A stretch of 64,000 nt of DNA from Candidatus Poribacteria bacterium (GTDB taxonomy: Bacteria; Poribacteria; WGA-4E; PCPOR2b). The notes beneath the pieces are model-generated. The model did no database searches. It had not been told where the DNA came from and saw only the letters and a program-made list of their open reading frames with translations. The first letter of the stretch is position 1. The number at the start of each line of letters is the position of its first letter. The DNA lies in NCBI GenBank assembly GCA_022822005.1, contig JAJECO010000084.1, positions 1-64,000 of the forward strand. Direction: 5' to 3'. Made by a program: the position numbers and the translations under genes. This document shows, piece by piece, positions 3,712-28,871 of this stretch.

Positions 3712-3987
3712 GTGGATAAGCATCAACGAGGTAATCGTAAGCTCAGAACAGGTACTGTCACAAGTGATCGCATGGATAAAACCGTTGCTGTCGAAATTGT
3801 TCGGGCTTATCAGCATCCCCTTTATAAGAAAATTGTGAGACGCTCCACCAAGATTCTGGCTCACGACGAGCAGAATATGTGCAGTGTCGGCGATCTCGTC
3901 CAAGTTGTCGAAGTCCGTCCGATCAGCCGTCGGAAACGTTGGAAAGTTCGTCAGATTGTCTCCAAAACAGAATCTGTTAATGCGTGA
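3712..3987 (+). CDS. rpsQ: Ribosomal protein S17
   Basis: The 91-residue OB-fold protein has the S17 pattern '[61 protein letters not shown]'. S17 is a primary 16S rRNA binder of the small-subunit body. The start codon is GTG at 3712, preceded by GAGAGGA; no ATG gives a full S17 N-terminus. It is spaced 22 bases from rpmC and 38 from rplN. Confidence 0.96.
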   Translation: [91 protein letters not shown]

Positions 3988-4394: not shown

Positions 4395-4416
4395 ATTCGC
4401 CCAGGAGGTAGCACCG

Positions 4417-6060: not shown

Positions 6061-6627
6061 ATGTCACGAATAGGACAAATGCCGATTCAGTTAGATTCAA
6101 AGGTTAAGATAGCTTTGGACCAAGATGACATCACCGTTGAAGGTCCAAAAGGCACTCTCAACTGGACGATTCCCGCAGGCATAGTGGTCAATTTAGGCGA
6201 CGAACTCATCACGATTGAGCGATTGACAAATCAGAAAATACACCGATCGTTACACGGCTTGGCTCGCAGTCTCATCGCCAACATGGTATCAGGTGTAACC
6301 GAGGGTTTTGAGAAAAAACTTATTCTCGTCGGCGTTGGATATCGTGCGCAAGTAGATCGCCAGAATCGTTTGGTCTTAAATGTTGGGTATTCCCACCCAG
6401 TAACCTATGAGCCTCCCGAAGGGATAACCCTGAGCGTTGGCGATTCCGAAAATGTGGGAGGACAACCTCACACACCAATAACGGTGAGCGGTATTGACAA
6501 GGCAGTCGTTGGTCAGGTTGCCGCCTCAATCCGTCAAATCAAGAAACCCGAAGTCTACGAACCTTCCAAAGGGCTCCGTTACGAAGGTGAACGCGTCCGT
6601 ATGAAGGAAGGTAAAACTGGAGTGTAA
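6061..6627 (+). CDS. rplF: Ribosomal protein L6
   Basis: From the ATG at 6061 the product is 188 residues and begins 'MSRIGQMPI', the standard L6 start. It contains the duplicated L6 fold, with 'GPKGTL', 'LI-NMV-GVT-GFEK-L-LVGVGYRA' and the C-terminal 'KKPEVYEPSKGLRYEGE'. L6 lies near the factor-binding site. A TTG start at 6040 would add seven unconserved residues and was not chosen; GGAGA precedes the ATG. The following 114-base spacer contains a terminator-like hairpin. Confidence 0.97.
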   Translation: MSRIGQMPIQLDSKVKIALDQDDITVEGPKGTLNWTIPAGIVVNLGDELITIERLTNQKIHRSLHGLARSLIANMVSGVTEGFEKKLILVGVGYRAQVDRQNRLVLNVGYSHPVTYEPPEGITLSVGDSENVGGQPHTPITVSGIDKAVVGQVAASIRQIKKPEVYEPSKGLRYEGERVRMKEGKTGV

Positions 6628-6660
6628 GGTAGCAGCTTAATTGCTATATTCTTGTAGGCT

Positions 6661-6719
6661 AAAGGATTTACAAGTCGGCACGCCAAAATTATCGTCGCCG
6701 GATTTGTCAATCCTTTTTT
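6661..6719 (+). terminator. Terminator- or attenuator-like hairpin inside the ribosomal cluster
   Basis: In the rplF-rplR spacer, AAAGGATTTACAA (6661-6673) can pair with TTGTCAATCCTTT (6704-6716) with one mismatch; an inner CGGC/GCCG pair extends the stem, and T6 follows at 6714-6719. A smaller alternative, GGATT-TGTC-AATCC (6700-6713), uses the same downstream bases and also leads into the T run. The small form has the same core as the dispersed GACA/TGTC hairpins elsewhere in the window. The genes downstream are essential, so full termination is unlikely; partial attenuation or transcript processing would fit. Confidence 0.5.
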
Positions 6720-6741
6720 ATTAATGTTGGAGGGATAATCG

Positions 6742-7110
6742 TTGGATCCGTCTAAAGCAAAATATCGCGCAAGGCATAAACGGCAAAAGCGGGTGCGAAA
6801 GAAAATAGCCGGGACAAGCGAAAGGCCGAGGCTTTCGGTTTTTAAAAGCTTGAAACATATTTACGCCCAAATTATCGATGATGAAGCCGGTAACACGCTC
6901 ATTGCAGCCTCAACCCAATCACCAGAGTTGAAAGATAACCTGTCAATACGAAGCAACATCAGTGCAGCAGAGCAGGTAGGCACATTAATCGCTCGCCGGG
7001 CAAAAGAACATCAAATTGAATCAGTGGTCTTCGATCGCGGTGGAAACCTCTATCATGGGAGAATTAAAGCACTTGCAGACGCCGCCAGAGAAGAGGGACT
7101 CCGATTCTGA
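6742..7110 (+). CDS. rplR: Ribosomal protein L18
   Basis: The 122-residue product has a basic N-terminus ('[12 protein letters not shown]'), '[28 protein letters not shown]', and the end '[27 protein letters not shown]', all diagnostic of L18, which anchors 5S rRNA. The start is TTG at 6742, preceded by GGAGGG at 6729-6734 with good spacing, and no ATG is available. Downstream rpsE follows after 45 bases. Confidence 0.96.
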
Positions 7111-7659: not shown

Positions 7660-7681
7660 CCTGTTGTTCCCAGCACCTCGA

Positions 7682-7762
7682 TTGCGTGTGCACCTAATTC
7701 GTTCGCAAAAATCCATCCCCGACAAAAGACAGAGGCTTCTAACCGTAATCACCAATCCATAA
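7682..7762 (+). pseudogene. Possible remnant of rpmD (L30 N-terminus)
   Basis: In the position normally held by rpmD, the frame from TTG 7682 reads LRVHLIRSQKSIPDKRQRLL and stops at TAA 7760-7762. Known L30 proteins begin with a similar strand and loop, of the form 'L-V-LVRS-IG-P-K-RATL'. The resemblance ends after about 20 residues and there is no room for the rest of L30 before rplO. No Shine-Dalgarno is evident. It may be a decayed gene or a chance match; the alignment was done by eye over a very short stretch. Confidence 0.3.
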
Positions 7763-7778
7763 AATGGAGTAAATATCA

Positions 7779-11289: not shown

Positions 11290-12255
11290 ATGACAGGGAG
11301 GGAAATCACCAAGCCAAAGCACCTCGTTACCGATCTTGATACATTGCAACCTGATTACGGGAAATTTGTTGCTGAACCACTCGAACGAGGATTTGGAACG
11401 ACTATTGGTAACTCGCTGCGACGCGTCTTGCTTTCTTCAATCCAAGGTGCCGCCGTGATTGCCGTTGCTATTGATGGGGTAAAGCATGAGTTCTCAACGC
11501 TGGACGGGATGAAAGAAGATGTCACTCAAGTTCTCCTTAACCTTAAAGAGATTCGACTTCGAGTTCATAGCGATGAGATTATCACATTGGGTTTATCCGC
11601 AGAAGGCTCCGGTAACATTACAGCAGCAGATATCCAGCCCAACGGACAGGTTGACATCATCAACCCGGACCAACATATTGCAACGCTCGACAAATGCGAT
11701 GGTTTGAATATGGAAATCCAAGTCTGTGGAGGCAGAGGATATGAGTTCGGGGAAGAACATCTAGACCACAGTCAGCAGATCGGAGTTATCCCGGTCGATT
11801 CTAAGTTTTCGCCAGTCAGAAAAGTCAATTTCTTGGTTGAAGAAACACGGGTCGGACACATGACAAACTATGACCGGCTTATCTTAGAAGTGTGGACAGA
11901 TGCGAGTATCACCCCGAAAGAAGCAGTCACACAAGCCTCGGACATCCTACTAGATCAATTTAGGCTCTTTAGCGATTTCGATGAAACCTACGTGGAACCG
12001 GTCGAGGAAATTGACGAAGAAGAACTTCAGCGTGAGAAATGGCTATCGAAGCCTGTCGCGGAACTTGAACTTTCAGTGCGATCCGCCAACTGTCTGGAAG
12101 CTGCAGAGATCACAACTATCCGAGACCTCGTGGTCAAGACTGAACAAGAAATGTTGAAATTTCGGAATTTCGGTAGAAAATCCCTGAACGAGATTAAGGA
12201 CATCCTTTCGGAGATGGGCCTCTCTTTAGGAATGACCCTTGGCAATGATGAGTGA
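11290..12255 (+). CDS. rpoA: RNA polymerase alpha subunit
   Basis: The 321-residue product has the N-terminal dimerisation domain ('[55 protein letters not shown]'-type) and the C-terminal domain ('[42 protein letters not shown]'), which binds UP-element DNA and activators. Length and domain order are normal. TAGGAGG lies 10-16 bases upstream of the ATG. It is the penultimate gene of the cluster, as usual. Confidence 0.98.
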
Positions 12256-12662: not shown

Positions 12663-12699
12663 AAAAAAAGGCGCTGATTTTCAGTCAGCGCCTTTTTTT
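12663..12699. terminator. Symmetric, probably bidirectional intrinsic terminator
   Basis: AAAAAAAGGCGCTGA (12663-12677) and TCAGCGCCTTTTTTT (12685-12699) form a perfect 15-bp stem around a 7-base loop, with an A7 tract before and a T7 tract after the GC-rich core. It therefore works as a Rho-independent terminator on both strands. It lies between rplQ (plus) and the convergent FadL-like gene (minus), where a shared terminator is expected. Confidence 0.93.
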
Positions 12700-12766: not shown

Positions 12767-14053
12767 TCAATATCGATATCCCGCAGACACAAACATCCGG
12801 TTGGAGGTTTGACTTTCTGTGAGCAAGTTGCTTGATTGCTCCCATGAACCTCGCATGTAGGCAATATCAATTTTGACAATCTGATCGAAGACCTTGCCTA
12901 TCCCAATCGTCAGAAAGTCTCGGTCACTGTCTATCTCCCTATCTTGGAACGGAATCGGATCCCGGAAGTAACCGATGCGCACACTGGTTTCGATAACCGG
13001 TATACGATACTCCGCACCGACACGAACCTGTATAGTACTGTCATAATACCGATTGAAGTTGTTCTGTGCATCTTCTGCTGGCAGCGGGTCATATTCGGTC
13101 TGTGTCCAGTCCGTAAACTGGACGTCACCGGCTAATGTCATGCGTTTTTCTAAGAGTTTGATAGCAACACCGCCGCCAAACTGAAATGGACGTTCGATAT
13201 CAAATAAGATTGATCCGTCATCGGCTTCCACACTCTCATCACCATCGTCGAATTCCACGATCGTCTGTTGTTCCCACAACTCGCTGACCTCAAGGTCCAC
13301 CGGCAGTGTAACAGTCCCACCAAGCGCCACATTTTCCCCAGCGAAAGCAAGTACGCCTATTCTACCGCCAAGACCTGAATACACTCTGTCTATGGTGTCG
13401 TGATAAGCGAAACTCTCCACTTCTGGATCAATGCTATTAATATCTCCCGCTGCACTGTCTAACTCGTAGAGACTTGATCCGTGCCAAAAGTCTATTGAGC
13501 CGCCAAGTAAGATATTTTCTGAGATAAAGACACCCGTCCCTAAACTCCAGATACCCATACCACCGCTGTTGGAGGTCATTTCATTCACATTAAATCCGCT
13601 AAACGCCGAATTGTCTGACGGATCCACCCCTCGAATGGTAATCTCGGAATCAAAATTTTGAGGTCGATTATATCCGAGCGCAAGCGCAATGCCACCACGA
13701 GTTGCGTATAGAGGGTAGACCAACCCAATCGAATTGGGTCGAGTCTGTGATCCTTCAGCGTCCGCCGTACGACCGCGGGTGAACTTCGCTTCTGTGTCCC
13801 GTTCGCTGTGTGCCAGACCGCCATACAACTCAAACTTTCTAATCTGAGCCAGCCCCGCCGGGTTCCAATACAGCGCCGTAAAATCATCTGCAACACCGAG
13901 AAATGCGCCGCCCATCCCCATCGTTCTTGCACCAAGACCGAAGGTATTACCGATAGCAATCTCCTCCACCTGTGCAACTCCAATTCTGCTCCCAAACACA
14001 AAGCAAGTGAGCATCAACGCCAAAACAATGGCGGTTTTCACTAATCTTCTCAT
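12767..14053 (-). CDS. FadL/TodX-like outer-membrane beta-barrel protein
   Basis: The 428-residue product starts at ATG 14053 with a signal peptide (MRRLVKTAIVLALMLTCFVF, likely cleaved after GVAQ). The mature start 'GARTMGMGGAFLGVADDFTALYWNPAGLAQI' is typical of the OMPP1/FadL/TodX and related PorV-type barrels, which move hydrophobic compounds or act as secretion-linked outer-membrane proteins. Alternating beta-strand patterns continue to a C-terminal aromatic residue (SAGYRY). The Shine-Dalgarno AAGGAGG of this gene lies inside the last codons and stop of the upstream lipoprotein gene, so the two are translationally coupled. The substrate cannot be told. Confidence 0.8.
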   Translation of the reverse strand: MRRLVKTAIVLALMLTCFVFGSRIGVAQVEEIAIGNTFGLGARTMGMGGAFLGVADDFTALYWNPAGLAQIRKFELYGGLAHSERDTEAKFTRGRTADAEGSQTRPNSIGLVYPLYATRGGIALALGYNRPQNFDSEITIRGVDPSDNSAFSGFNVNEMTSNSGGMGIWSLGTGVFISENILLGGSIDFWHGSSLYELDSAAGDINSIDPEVESFAYHDTIDRVYSGLGGRIGVLAFAGENVALGGTVTLPVDLEVSELWEQQTIVEFDDGDESVEADDGSILFDIERPFQFGGGVAIKLLEKRMTLAGDVQFTDWTQTEYDPLPAEDAQNNFNRYYDSTIQVRVGAEYRIPVIETSVRIGYFRDPIPFQDREIDSDRDFLTIGIGKVFDQIVKIDIAYMRGSWEQSSNLLTESQTSNRMFVSAGYRY

Positions 14054-24813: not shown

Positions 24814-25782
24814 CTACCGTCCAAGCCGTTTGAGCCAACCCCATACCGTCATTTGCATGCCCATCGGTGCTACAGCACGCGCAAATCTAGGGTCAAACCA
24901 CGCAGGGGCTCCTTCAGGCACATGATCATGGGTCAACCGTTGCTGGTTCCTGCCATCAGCGTCCATCACATACACCTTTGGAATTGGATCCCGAAGAGAT
25001 ATAAAGGCAATTTTTTTCCCAGTCGGCGACCACGCCGGATGCTGGTCTTCCTCAAAAAATGTGAGCCGACGGACGTTTTTACCGTTGGCGTTCATCACAT
25101 AAATACCGCCACCTGCTCTTGTGGATCTGAAGGCAATCTTTTTACCATCCGGCGACCACGCCGGATCGTTATCGCTTGCGCGATCATCGGTCAAGGGACG
25201 TATATTTCCTCCGTCGGTGTCCATCACATAGATGTCAAAATCGACTCTTTGCCGTCCCCCCGCGGCAAAGGCAATCTGTTTTCCATCCGGCGACCACGTA
25301 GGATGGAGATCACACCCATCTGGACGATTTGTGAGTCGGCGGATATTGTCACCATCGGCACCCATCACATAGATGTCACCCAATACCCCTAGTGGTCTTG
25401 AGTTGAAGGCAATCTGTCTCCCGTCCGGCGACCATGCAGGGAGGAATGTGACCGCTGGCTGCTCTGTGAGCAGACGGACATTCTCTCCATCGGCGTCCAT
25501 CACATAGATACCACCGTTTCCTCGTTTGGACCAGAAAGCAATCCGCTTGCCATCCGGTGACCACGTAGGACCCCCATCCCCGATAACTCCCTTTGTCAGC
25601 TTTTGCAGGTTCCTTCCATCGATATCCATGAGATGAATTTTCCAGTGTTCTTCATTGATTCTGCGGTTGAAAGCGATTTGCGGTTTATCGGGTGCCTGTC
25701 CCCAAACATTGCTCTGTGAGAAAGTACCGCCTAACAGAGCCGCATAGATCGAAACAACTGTTAAACAGTGCTTTCGATTCAT
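24814..25782 (-). CDS. Secreted TolB/PD40-type beta-propeller protein
   Basis: The 322-residue product has a signal peptide (MNRKHCLTVVSIYAALLGGT...) and five regular repeats '[TA]WSP[DT]G[KR][RQK]IAF' each followed by a 'IYVMDADG-N-R-LT' strand pair, forming one six-bladed TolB-like propeller. The last 16 residues (AVAPMGMQMTVWGWLK plus RLGR) match the tails of its paralogues. It heads away from the large plus-strand propeller and is first to end in a set of four tandem minus-strand paralogues, indicating local duplication. Confidence 0.82.
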   Translation of the reverse strand: MNRKHCLTVVSIYAALLGGTFSQSNVWGQAPDKPQIAFNRRINEEHWKIHLMDIDGRNLQKLTKGVIGDGGPTWSPDGKRIAFWSKRGNGGIYVMDADGENVRLLTEQPAVTFLPAWSPDGRQIAFNSRPLGVLGDIYVMGADGDNIRRLTNRPDGCDLHPTWSPDGKQIAFAAGGRQRVDFDIYVMDTDGGNIRPLTDDRASDNDPAWSPDGKKIAFRSTRAGGGIYVMNANGKNVRRLTFFEEDQHPAWSPTGKKIAFISLRDPIPKVYVMDADGRNQQRLTHDHVPEGAPAWFDPRFARAVAPMGMQMTVWGWLKRLGR

Positions 25783-25811
25783 TTTTCTACCTCCACATCA
25801 TTCACTTGGAA

Positions 25812-26723
25812 TCATAAGCCTAACCTGATCTGTCCCCAAGTTACATGCAATTTCCGCACAGGATCTACCGCCGCTGGACCATCAGGCCGCCAAGATGGCA
25901 GCGCGCCATCAAACAGTATGCGCCGATCCTTCCCATTGGCTTTCATCACACCGACTTTACTCTCACCAATCAACGAAACCGAAAAAGCAATATGCGTTCC
26001 CGTTGGCGACCATGACGGATAATACTCGCCCTTATCTGAGATGCGTCTGACGTTGCGCCCATTTGCTGCATCCATGAGGCAGATACCCCTGCCACCTCGA
26101 TTTGAGTAGAAGGCAATTCGACGCCCATTGGGAGACCAAGCTGGCGCGGCATCATTGAACGCATTATCGGTCAACCGACGTAATTTGCCGCCATCAACGT
26201 CGATGACGTAGATGTCGTTTTGCCGATCATGGCGGATGGTGAATGCAATCTGTTTTCCATCTGGCGACCAAGCGGCGTCCCGGAAACCGTTATCCCGCCC
26301 GTTGAAGAACACTTGGGTTTCTACTTTCGTTTCAAGATCAAAAATTATCAGTTCTTCAAACCTTGTGAAGGCAATTTTTGTGCCGTCGGGATGCCAAGAT
26401 GGCCGTCCCTTAAAATGAATAGGCACCAAGCGTTCCAGATTACGACCGTCTACATCCATCACGTAAACGTGGGTATGCACATCGGCAGTAAATGCAATTC
26501 TTTTCCCATCGGCTGACCAAGCTGGCCAACTTGGATCGGGTCTACTTTTTAAGGGTTGGGGAGCGGTTCCATCCGAATTGATGACAACAATTCCTATATC
26601 AGGGTTAAATGCCTTTGATACAAAGGCAATTTGGGAACCCCAAGCAAGATTCGCTTTAGAACCGAATCCCCCAATGCACCCAAACCCCACCGCAATGAAT
26701 ATAACAAACAGGACTTTTTTCAT
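25812..26723 (-). CDS. Secreted TolB/PD40-type beta-propeller protein
   Basis: From ATG 26723 the product has 303 residues, with a signal peptide (MKKVLFVIFIAVGFGCIGG) and five PD40 repeats (AWSADGKRIAF, SWHPDGTKIAF, AWSPDGKQIAF, AWSPNGRRIAF, SWSPTGTHIAF). An earlier in-frame ATG at 26786 overlaps the neighbouring gene and lacks a signal peptide, and AAGGAAAAATCAGA supports the later start. The tail AVDPVRKLHVTWGQIR aligns with the other propellers. The Cys17 within the signal might alternatively mark a lipoprotein, but no strong lipobox surrounds it. Confidence 0.8.
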   Translation of the reverse strand: MKKVLFVIFIAVGFGCIGGFGSKANLAWGSQIAFVSKAFNPDIGIVVINSDGTAPQPLKSRPDPSWPAWSADGKRIAFTADVHTHVYVMDVDGRNLERLVPIHFKGRPSWHPDGTKIAFTRFEELIIFDLETKVETQVFFNGRDNGFRDAAWSPDGKQIAFTIRHDRQNDIYVIDVDGGKLRRLTDNAFNDAAPAWSPNGRRIAFYSNRGGRGICLMDAANGRNVRRISDKGEYYPSWSPTGTHIAFSVSLIGESKVGVMKANGKDRRILFDGALPSWRPDGPAAVDPVRKLHVTWGQIRLGL

Positions 26724-26755
26724 TCTGATTTTTCCTTCAGCAGCAATTACCCCCC

Positions 26756-27775
26756 TCATTGCTTTTCTGATTTCAACCGCCCCCAAAATGTGACATGGTT
26801 GCCTCGTGTGTCAACAGGGAGCGACCGGTCGGGAACCACCCAAGTCGGGTACAGATCATGCCCCGGATGAGTGGTCACCTGCCTCGCTTCACCCCCATTG
26901 GCGTTAACGACGTAAATATCCCAGCCCGTTCGCCCTCGAGGCGACATGAAGGCAATCCACCGCCCATCGGGGGACCAAGCGGGTAAACGGTCTGATTTGG
27001 GGTGATTGGTCACTCTGACGATGTTGGCACCATCGGCGTCCATCACGTAGATATCCTCTTGACCGAGGTTGCGTAGATTGGAAGAGAAAGCAATCTTTGT
27101 CCCATCGGGGGACCAGGCAGGGGCTCGACCCCTTGGACTCAACCGAACGCGATTTCTCCCATTTCGGTCCATCACGAAGATGCCGTGGTCCTTCTCATTT
27201 GCGCCTGCTCCTCCACCCCCCGCGTTAAATACGATTCTTTCTTCATTGGGAGACCAGGAGGGATGGCTATTCTGGTGGTTTTCATGGGGTGCTTTTGTTA
27301 GCTGCTTCCAACCATCCCCGTCTGCCTTTATAATACAAATATTTGAACGGATCTCGTCCCGTAGCCGACATGCCAATGCCAACCACTTGCCATCCCCAGA
27401 CCAGTCAGGGTGGAAAAAATCCATCCCCAATCCTCGCAACTGAGCAGTGATGTTCTTCTGTTTTCCGGTGCCAAGTTCTAATACAAACAGATTACCTTCT
27501 TGTTTGGCGTTGCGCTGACTAAAGGCAACCCATTTGCCATCAGGAGACCACACCATGCCAACAGCGTTAGGGCTATGAAGCCACTTCCGCTCGTTAGTAC
27601 CGTCGGCGTTAATTAGGTAAACCTCTCTCTTACGCCCCTCTCGCTCCGAGTTAAACGCGATGATTCCGGTCGGTTCAGCAGACGCATAATCATAGATCAG
27701 TAGAAGAGATAGGGTTATCAGGTGTACCATCAAAAGGGGGTTAACGTCGGATTTGAGTTTCATCTGTTTTCTCAT
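26756..27775 (-). CDS. Secreted TolB/PD40-type beta-propeller protein
   Basis: The 339-residue product has a hydrophobic N-terminal signal (PLLMVHLITLSLLLIYDYASA) and five PD40 repeats such as 'AWSPDGTKIAF' and 'AWSPDGRWIAF', with strand pairs like 'DIYVMDADGANIVRVT'. The tail PVDTRGNHVTFWGRLK matches the conserved C-terminal pattern of the group. The start is uncertain between ATG 27775 and ATG 27763 because neither has a good Shine-Dalgarno. The gap to the next paralogue is 32 bases, so the two may share a transcript. Confidence 0.8.
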   Translation of the reverse strand: MRKQMKLKSDVNPLLMVHLITLSLLLIYDYASAEPTGIIAFNSEREGRKREVYLINADGTNERKWLHSPNAVGMVWSPDGKWVAFSQRNAKQEGNLFVLELGTGKQKNITAQLRGLGMDFFHPDWSGDGKWLALACRLRDEIRSNICIIKADGDGWKQLTKAPHENHQNSHPSWSPNEERIVFNAGGGGAGANEKDHGIFVMDRNGRNRVRLSPRGRAPAWSPDGTKIAFSSNLRNLGQEDIYVMDADGANIVRVTNHPKSDRLPAWSPDGRWIAFMSPRGRTGWDIYVVNANGGEARQVTTHPGHDLYPTWVVPDRSLPVDTRGNHVTFWGRLKSEKQ

Positions 27776-27801
27776 CGTTTTCGCAGAAATTTAGAATTAC
27801 T

Positions 27802-27829
27802 GAAACCGATGAACTTACCCATCGGTTTC
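27802..27829. repeat. Perfect 10-bp inverted repeat between propeller genes
   Basis: GAAACCGATG (27802-27811) and CATCGGTTTC (27820-27829) form a perfect stem with an 8-base loop in the 109-base spacer between two minus-strand propeller genes. No U tract follows on the minus strand, so it is not a clear terminator. It could be a transcript-stability hairpin or a protein-binding operator. Confidence 0.45.
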
Positions 27830-27884
27830 AAAACAGTGGCTTGGCTGCCCGCCATCTTTTAGCCGCCCTGATTGTCAGATTCAC

Positions 27885-28871
27885 CTACCGTCCAAGTCGT
27901 TTGAGCCAGCCCCATGTGACGACACGCTTACCAACGGTGGAAATCGCATAGGAGGACATGTCTGGGTCAAACCAAGAGGGTGTCCCGTCCCATCCTGCAT
28001 CATTGGTCAAATTGCGTAGATTCTTCCCGTTGACATCTATTACATAAATTTCTACGTTGTTGTTCATATCGTCTCGATGACTCATGAAGGCAATCCTTTG
28101 GCCATCGGGAGACCATGAGGGATCTTCGTTTCGAAAGCGACCGCGGGTCAATCGGCGAGGATTTCCTCCGTCAGCGTCCATGATACCTATGTCCCAGATC
28201 CAGTTGTTATCCTCCCAACCGCTTCTGAAGGCAATTCTTTGCCCATCGGGTGACCACGAGGGTTCGTGACCAACTCTCACCCCCAATTGACGAAGATTTT
28301 TTCCGTCGGCATCCATTACAAAGATTCCAGTTCCTTCGACGCGACTCGAAGTAAACGCAATCTTTCGACCGTCAGGAGACCAGTCCGGAGCCCAGTCACT
28401 CTCCGGATGATTTGTCAGGTTGCGGATATCCGTACCATCAGCGTTCATCACATAGATGTCGATGCCATCTGTATCTCTATGCGAGGAACTGAAAGCAATC
28501 TTTTGACCGTCAGGAGACCATGCCGGCTCACCTACAGCCCCTGGAAAATCTGTCAATTGACGGGTATTTTTCCCGTCGGCATCCATCACATAAAGGTCAG
28601 CCAGTACTCCGTTCCGCCTAGAGGCAAAGACAATTCTCCGACCGTCGGGTGACCACGTGGGCCAGGCATCCCAAGAGTGATGATTTGTCAGGTTACGAAC
28701 GTTCCTCCCGTCGGCACCCATTGCATAGATCTCAAGATTGCCATCACGACTGGAGGTAAAAGCAATTTGTGCTTTACGGGGGACTTGCGCTTCAACGTTT
28801 ACCGATAACATCAAAGTACTCAGCAGCCCAAAAAGAATGAGAATTGCACTTGAAATGTTCTTGGGATTCAT
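27885..28871 (-). CDS. Secreted TolB/PD40-type beta-propeller protein
   Basis: From ATG 28871 the product is 328 residues: a signal peptide (MNPKNISSAILILFGLLSTL, cleavage near VEA) and five highly regular PD40 repeats, '[TADS]WSPDG[RQ][RK]I[AV]F', separated by 'EIYAMGADG-NVRNLTNH'-type strands. It is the most regular of the five paralogues. The tail AISTVGKRVVTWGWLK plus RLGR is almost the same as that of the 24814-25782 product. An earlier ATG at 28916 precedes the Shine-Dalgarno AGAGGA and was not chosen. Confidence 0.83.
   Translation of the reverse strand: MNPKNISSAILILFGLLSTLMLSVNVEAQVPRKAQIAFTSSRDGNLEIYAMGADGRNVRNLTNHHSWDAWPTWSPDGRRIVFASRRNGVLADLYVMDADGKNTRQLTDFPGAVGEPAWSPDGQKIAFSSSHRDTDGIDIYVMNADGTDIRNLTNHPESDWAPDWSPDGRKIAFTSSRVEGTGIFVMDADGKNLRQLGVRVGHEPSWSPDGQRIAFRSGWEDNNWIWDIGIMDADGGNPRRLTRGRFRNEDPSWSPDGQRIAFMSHRDDMNNNVEIYVIDVNGKNLRNLTNDAGWDGTPSWFDPDMSSYAISTVGKRVVTWGWLKRLGR

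Follow-up and report, generated by a model that had tools for sequence, protein, structure and literature searches.

In Escherichia coli, the attenuator between rplL and rpoB is an intra-operon terminator that tunes a ribosomal-protein operon. Functional internal terminators have also been described in archaeal operons for ribosomal proteins and RNA polymerase, as the ioTTS of Methanococcus maripaludis (PMC10450193). The S10-leader attenuator of E. coli lies in the 5′ leader and is controlled by L4, and in the spc operon of the same organism the S8 control site is a helix 21 mimic that acts at the level of translation (PMC10931766). Regulation of the spc operon in Bacillus subtilis and other species is termed unknown in the same review, which dates from 2024 (PMC10931766). 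Distinct RNA regulators of a single ribosomal protein, S15, are described as having arisen in different phyla (PMC4137082), and the dispersed palindromes of the REP/BIME type are known together with RAYT transposases (PMC2817692, PMC3733652). A limited literature search turned up neither a described attenuator between rplF and rplR nor a description of REPs in Poribacteria.

The window, by which we mean the whole stretch of 64,000 nucleotides of DNA that was analysed, contains the S10-spc-alpha cluster with the gene order rpsH, rplF, rplR, rpsE, rplO, secY at the locus of interest. It comes from a Candidatus Poribacteria genome, as Poribacteria MAGs supply the top four L18 matches in the named species collection. 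The first-pass annotation had placed a hairpin site between rplF and rplR, and the identities of the flanking L6 and L18 genes were confirmed by NCBIfam profiles. The spacer between the two genes spans 114 bases (6628-6741), with the hairpin and a run of six T (T6) at 6661-6719 inside it. In what follows, G000 denotes this genome, G001 to G005 the other members of its genus, and G007 a genome of another genus in the same family. The features of the locus are as follows.

6061-6627, plus strand: rplF (ribosomal protein L6), the upstream gene; NCBIfam TIGR03654, 202 bits against a cut-off of 168.6
6651-6656, plus strand: CTTGTA, possible upstream arm of a weak alternative hairpin with TACAAG at 6669-6674; from the sequence
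6661-6679, plus strand: 5′ arm of the long hairpin; from sequence, folding and covariation
6680-6696, plus strand: loop of the long hairpin, 17 nt; three extra pairs are possible in G000 and G003 only
6697-6716, plus strand: 3′ arm of the long hairpin, including the 14-base core GGATTTGTCAATCC at 6700-6713 (the short stem)
6714-6719, plus strand: T6 tract at the base of the long hairpin; kept in six of six genus members
6729-6734, plus strand: GGAGGG, separated from T6 by 9 bases; probably the ribosome-binding site of rplR, from sequence and inferred from position
6742-7110, plus strand: rplR (ribosomal protein L18), the downstream gene, with a TTG start; NCBIfam TIGR00060, 138.9 bits against a cut-off of 87.9

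Like the ioTTS of M. maripaludis and the rplL-rpoB attenuator, the rplF-rplR candidate is a site of terminator type that lies between genes in an essential operon, where leakiness is to be expected; unlike those sites, which concern ribosomal-protein versus RNA polymerase genes, it separates two genes for equimolar ribosomal proteins. It shares with the S10-leader attenuator a terminator-like hairpin in a ribosomal-protein operon, but that element lies in a 5′ leader and answers to a known protein, L4, whereas the rplF-rplR hairpin is found in mid-operon and is predicted from sequence. Two other features of the window were recorded. The gap between rpsE and rplO, the usual position of rpmD (L30), measures 119 bases (window 7660-7778) and is too short for that gene. 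At window 25004-28736 there are many diverged direct repeats of 37-61 bases, often spaced by about 126-141 bases, which probably sit within minus-strand repeat-protein genes.

The long hairpin is an imperfect structure of 18 pairs with a folding energy of about -21 kcal/mol, and T6 follows it directly. Residues 6661-6668 pair with 6709-6716, 6670-6676 with 6701-6707 and 6677-6679 with 6697-6699, the irregularities being a 1x1 mismatch at 6669/6708 and a bulged G at 6700. The orientation is sense, with T6 on the sense side and only T3 on the other strand. The whole spacer, 6628-6741, whose folding had been proposed as a check on the first-pass annotation, folds at -31 kcal/mol (z -2.8), and 4 of 200 shuffles were as stable. 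With a second set of shuffles the spacer scored a z of -3.5. Of the 21 gene junctions in the S10-spc-alpha cluster, 13 have spacers long enough for folding, and among these the value is the lowest, the next being -1.65. The hairpin is single-copy in G000: apart from the site itself the covariance model finds only its own opposite strand, and BLAST finds no second copy.

The description of a long and a short stem that precede T6 and have one 3′ arm in common matches the sequence. Both stems of the supposed "alternative hairpins" exist, but a switch between them is not evident. As a competing structure the short stem, GGATT-TGTC-AATCC, was rejected, being about 19 kcal/mol weaker than the long one (-2.2 versus -21.0 kcal/mol) and lost in G002 and G007. 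Because it is nested in the long 3′ arm and both stems end at T6, the two do not form a terminator/antiterminator pair, and the short stem is a by-product. The other potential alternative, between CTTGTA and TACAAG, folds at -4.6 kcal/mol when the stretch is taken alone, and its formation would disrupt the long stem. It is kept in five genus members, with either C-G or U-G as the first pair, and inspection by eye did not reveal it in G002 or G007.

For the comparison of spacers, matches to L18 were obtained in 54 of 58 relatives and in 78 of 84 genomes of the phylum. The rplF-rplR regions were read from these 78 genomes, the end of rplF being detected automatically in 65 of them, with raw upstream sequence used for the remaining 13; regions were read up to 190 bases, so that the longest spacer (G042) is covered in part. 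The hairpin with T6 is kept in all six genomes of the genus. In G000, G001, G003, G004 and G005 it is nearly identical, and in G002 the stem takes another register with about 9 pairs and T6 still stands at its end. Outside the genus, a diverged hairpin with a shorter T run occurs in one of the three other genera of the family: G007 keeps the stem with compensatory changes, followed by TTTTC only. The 29-base spacer of G006 has no hairpin, and that of G008 has other hairpins.

The identity of the hairpin and T6 to G000 is 54/59 in G005, 55/59 in G004 and 54/59 in G001, compared with 67%, 69% and 61%, respectively, at four-fold degenerate sites of the cluster, so the element is more conserved than these sites (binomial 1e-5 to 2e-7). 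The 33 bases upstream of the hairpin are less constrained, with identities of 29/33 (G005), 28/33 (G004) and 24/33 (G001). Three of the 18 pairs carry double changes: in G007 an A-U and a U-A pair have each become C-G, and in G005 a C-G pair has become U-A. Of all cells, 97.2% are paired. Nine of 500 shuffles reach the observed pairing and double changes, and every slid control is lower. We regard the covariation support for the long stem as modest, because the carriers of the hairpin are limited to G007 and six genomes that are close relatives of one another. A covariance model built from six sequences recovers all six of its source sites, as it must, and in addition G002 at an E-value of 0.003; since matches of equal strength arise elsewhere in four g6 genomes, G002 is counted by its position and not by its score.

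The terminator-like character of the site was assessed with our own scan for a hairpin ending at a run of at least 5 T (6 of 8) over each ribosomal cluster slice, and the terminator at the end of the operon served as a yardstick:

12663-12699, no strand assigned: end-of-operon terminator after rplQ; from the scans and the comparison of stem feet

The scan finds the rplF-rplR site in six of six genus genomes, with energies of -12 to -21 kcal/mol; G007 falls short of the T threshold because its run is TTTTC. The rplF-rplR hairpin is at least as stable as the rplQ terminator in four of the five genomes scored (-21.2 and -18.9 kcal/mol, respectively, in G000, -21.2 and -21.2 in G003, -16.9 and -14.5 in G005, -17.2 and -17.0 in G004), the rplQ hairpin being the stronger in G002 (-12.1 and -17.3); the slice of G001 ends before rplQ. 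Other cluster sites below -10 kcal/mol lie at 13145 in G000 (beyond rplQ), at 3769 in G001 (in rpsC), at 4408 in G007 (in rplN) and at 11357 in G005, in an expanded rpsK-rpsD spacer of 426 bases. Across the 78 rplF-rplR regions, every one of the six genus members has a hairpin of -8 kcal/mol or lower with a T run, as do 2 of the 72 other genomes, namely G027 (-8.1) and G057. The spacer of G057 (L156) contains repeats of a GTAGGAGCGAGTGTTTTTG...TTTGTACC unit, which bring T runs with them and account for its larger size.

A mirrored A-tract/T-tract foot is common to the rplF-rplR hairpin and the terminators after rplQ and rplL. The loops of the latter two are compact, with 3-4 nt (4 bases in the case of rplL), versus 17 nt in the rplF-rplR hairpin. 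As in an intrinsic terminator, a T-rich tract comes straight after the stem on the sense strand in all six genus members; the compact, G+C-rich, short-loop hairpin of that class is not found here, where the loop has 17 nt and the stem is imperfect. A consensus terminator scan reports no excess of terminator-like sites (16 versus 15.7 in shuffles) and omits the rplF-rplR site, because it limits loops to 8 and requires at least 3 G-C pairs. Owing to the long loop, the imperfect stem and its absence from the consensus scan, we call the site terminator-like and not a proven terminator.

Taken as a whole, the rplF-rplR spacer probably contains a leaky intrinsic terminator, an attenuator-like element that lies in the sense direction within the spc operon. 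The 18-pair hairpin would form in the nascent RNA as RNA polymerase leaves rplF, the polymerase would pause or partly terminate at T6, and the fraction that reads through would yield rplR and the genes beyond. That termination occurs at T6 we infer from the structure, its conservation, the T run, the single copy and the sense orientation. It would have to be leaky or regulated, because only 9 bases separate T6 from the ribosome-binding site of rplR, which leaves almost no room for a promoter, and because the downstream genes are essential; termination is on these grounds predicted to be partial. The only hints that it may be regulated are the conserved loop and the weak alternative hairpin. 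A sizeable reduction of L18, S5, L15 and the other downstream products is hard to square with equal ribosomal-protein stoichiometry, unless the effect is small or regulated, and this speaks against a terminator. The first-pass annotation had offered an attenuator as one of two explanations, and this prediction gains comparative support from the hairpin and T6 in six of six genus genomes, the compensatory changes and the single copy.

The main rival to a leaky terminator is a hairpin for RNA processing or stability, at which an RNase III-like cut or protection of the 3′ end of the upstream half of the mRNA would segment the transcript post-transcriptionally, the T run being incidental. A near-continuous stem of 18-21 pairs with compensatory changes would suit such a role, as would the retention of the stem in G007 next to a weak T run. 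On the other hand, T6 is kept in six of six genus members, including G002 with its changed stem sequence, and the stem of G002 has only about 9 pairs, which is short for RNase III. We consider this explanation rather unlikely.

More doubtful is an autoregulatory site, where one of the operon's ribosomal proteins (L6, L18, S8 or another) would bind the hairpin and set termination or translation at rplR. The position in the spc operon, a loop that agrees with those of four genus members at 14-16 of its 17 positions and a differently shaped structured RNA in the same spacer of genus g8 are in keeping with such control, and the hairpin has AAGTCG in common with the S8 site (helix 21) in the 16S rRNA of this genome. 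The S8 core, as we read it off that 16S, presumably consists of AAGTC with GATACT in helix 21, and when both strands were looked for in the hairpin, AAGTC was present and GATACT, the opposite strand, absent. The site resembles the E. coli S8 site in belonging to the same operon and differs from it in lacking the second strand of the mimic. Mimicry of 16S and 23S rRNA was rejected, since 8-mers in common with them are at chance level (two with 16S versus 1.0 expected, none with 23S). Rfam at the gathering threshold gave only one tRNA in the window, and no match for 6500-6800 at E-values up to 5; a search for the 5S rRNA motif near the 23S gene found none. Sequestration of the rplR ribosome-binding site was also discarded, as it is paired in the minimum-energy folds of G000 and G003 only.

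Genus g8 belongs to family f3. Many of its rplF-rplR spacers have a conserved GCGCGC/GCGCGC outer stem and a variable inner stem, with no T run, just upstream of AAGGAG, the ribosome-binding site of rplR (e.g. L041-L046, L049, L053, L057). An RNAalifold consensus of 25 mixed sequences was weak because of length variants, and the 16 long forms were counted instead. Among these, 84% of cells pair and the covariation score is above shuffles (4 of 500 reach it), and the count of double-change pairs is not (150 of 500 reach it).

It is highly improbable that a separate rplR transcript starts from an internal promoter that overlaps the stem (TTTACA at 6667, 17 bases, TATCGT at 6690): the candidate has 9 of 12 consensus matches and by eye is kept in five genus members, but promoter-like matches in this region are no more frequent than chance predicts (16 versus 18.4 in shuffles), and by eye the -10 element is lost in G007 and the -35 element in G002.

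The statement that the short stem is the core of dispersed hairpins holds: GGATTTGTCAATCC occurs five times in the window, where 0.05 are expected with up to one mismatch, and 126 times genome-wide, a reversed control pattern giving none. Thirty loci with the core were read (L002-L031), and in most of them it lies within a double hairpin of about 75 bases, GCTCGGCTTGGATA...GCAGTGGATTTGTCAATCCACTGCGAGC, with the loop motif TGTC in both palindromes in opposite orientation; several loci keep the second palindrome only. Dispersed palindromes of this REP-like kind are found at window 19320, 19457, 31348 and 40219. At about 206 kb in C58 of G000 (L212:1426-1983), a 185-aa ORF matches Y1_Tnp (PF01797; 22 bits, or 25.5 when neighbours are included, against a cut-off of 23) and is flanked by several core copies, which we take to be the REP repeat/RAYT gene arrangement. 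The dispersed palindromes thus look like a REP/BIME-like double-hairpin family with a Y1 (RAYT-like) transposase gene. Exact core copies number 0 to 59 in ten relatives, with 59 in G003, 28 in G009 and 18 in G002.

That such a mobile palindrome entered the ribosomal cluster, as the first-pass annotation had suggested, is scarcely credible in spite of the exact 14-base core (0.04 copies expected genome-wide by base composition), because the spacer locus (L016) has the core alone, with neither the double-hairpin unit nor the longer second palindrome, G001, G004 and G005 have nearly the same spacer length and flanks around a core that is one base off (GGATTTGTCGATCC), G002 and G007 have no core, and core copy number (0 to 126) shows no relation to where the hairpin occurs. 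Core counts in this genome and ten relatives, the contexts of the copies and the spacer alignment are all against a mobile-repeat origin, and in its flanks, copy behaviour and conservation in place the site is unlike an insertion of a REP/BIME repeat. From GGATTTGTCGATCC in the aligned sister spacers and the unrelated copy number, the identity to the mobile repeat would most simply be one substitution in a conserved arm, a striking resemblance that is not evidence of descent. A different mobile repeat has inserted into the spacer of G001 (OY282444.1; L036/L063), where about 54 extra bases, including GGGTGTGGGAGTATGTCAA, lie just downstream of T6 and the hairpin, T6 and the ribosome-binding site are intact. 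Similar sequences with at most two mismatches number 6 in G001 and 9 in G004 and vary mostly after TCAA, and the repeat resembles an IS200/IS605 end.

If the leaky-terminator reading is extended, a genus-specific regulated attenuator would split the spc operon between L6 and L18, the polymerase's choice being set by a protein or by the status of the ribosome, acting via the conserved loop and the weak alternative hairpin upstream. Because genus g8 has a different conserved structure in the same place, Poribacteria lineages would in that case have repeatedly and independently evolved control RNAs for ribosomal proteins in the rplF-rplR spacer; we put this forward as a tentative proposal. The 14-base core also illustrates how a motif in common can mislead, the identity to a mobile repeat having come down to one base in a conserved hairpin. 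A conserved terminator-like element in the middle of the spc operon of an uncultured phylum would be a concrete and testable candidate for regulation.
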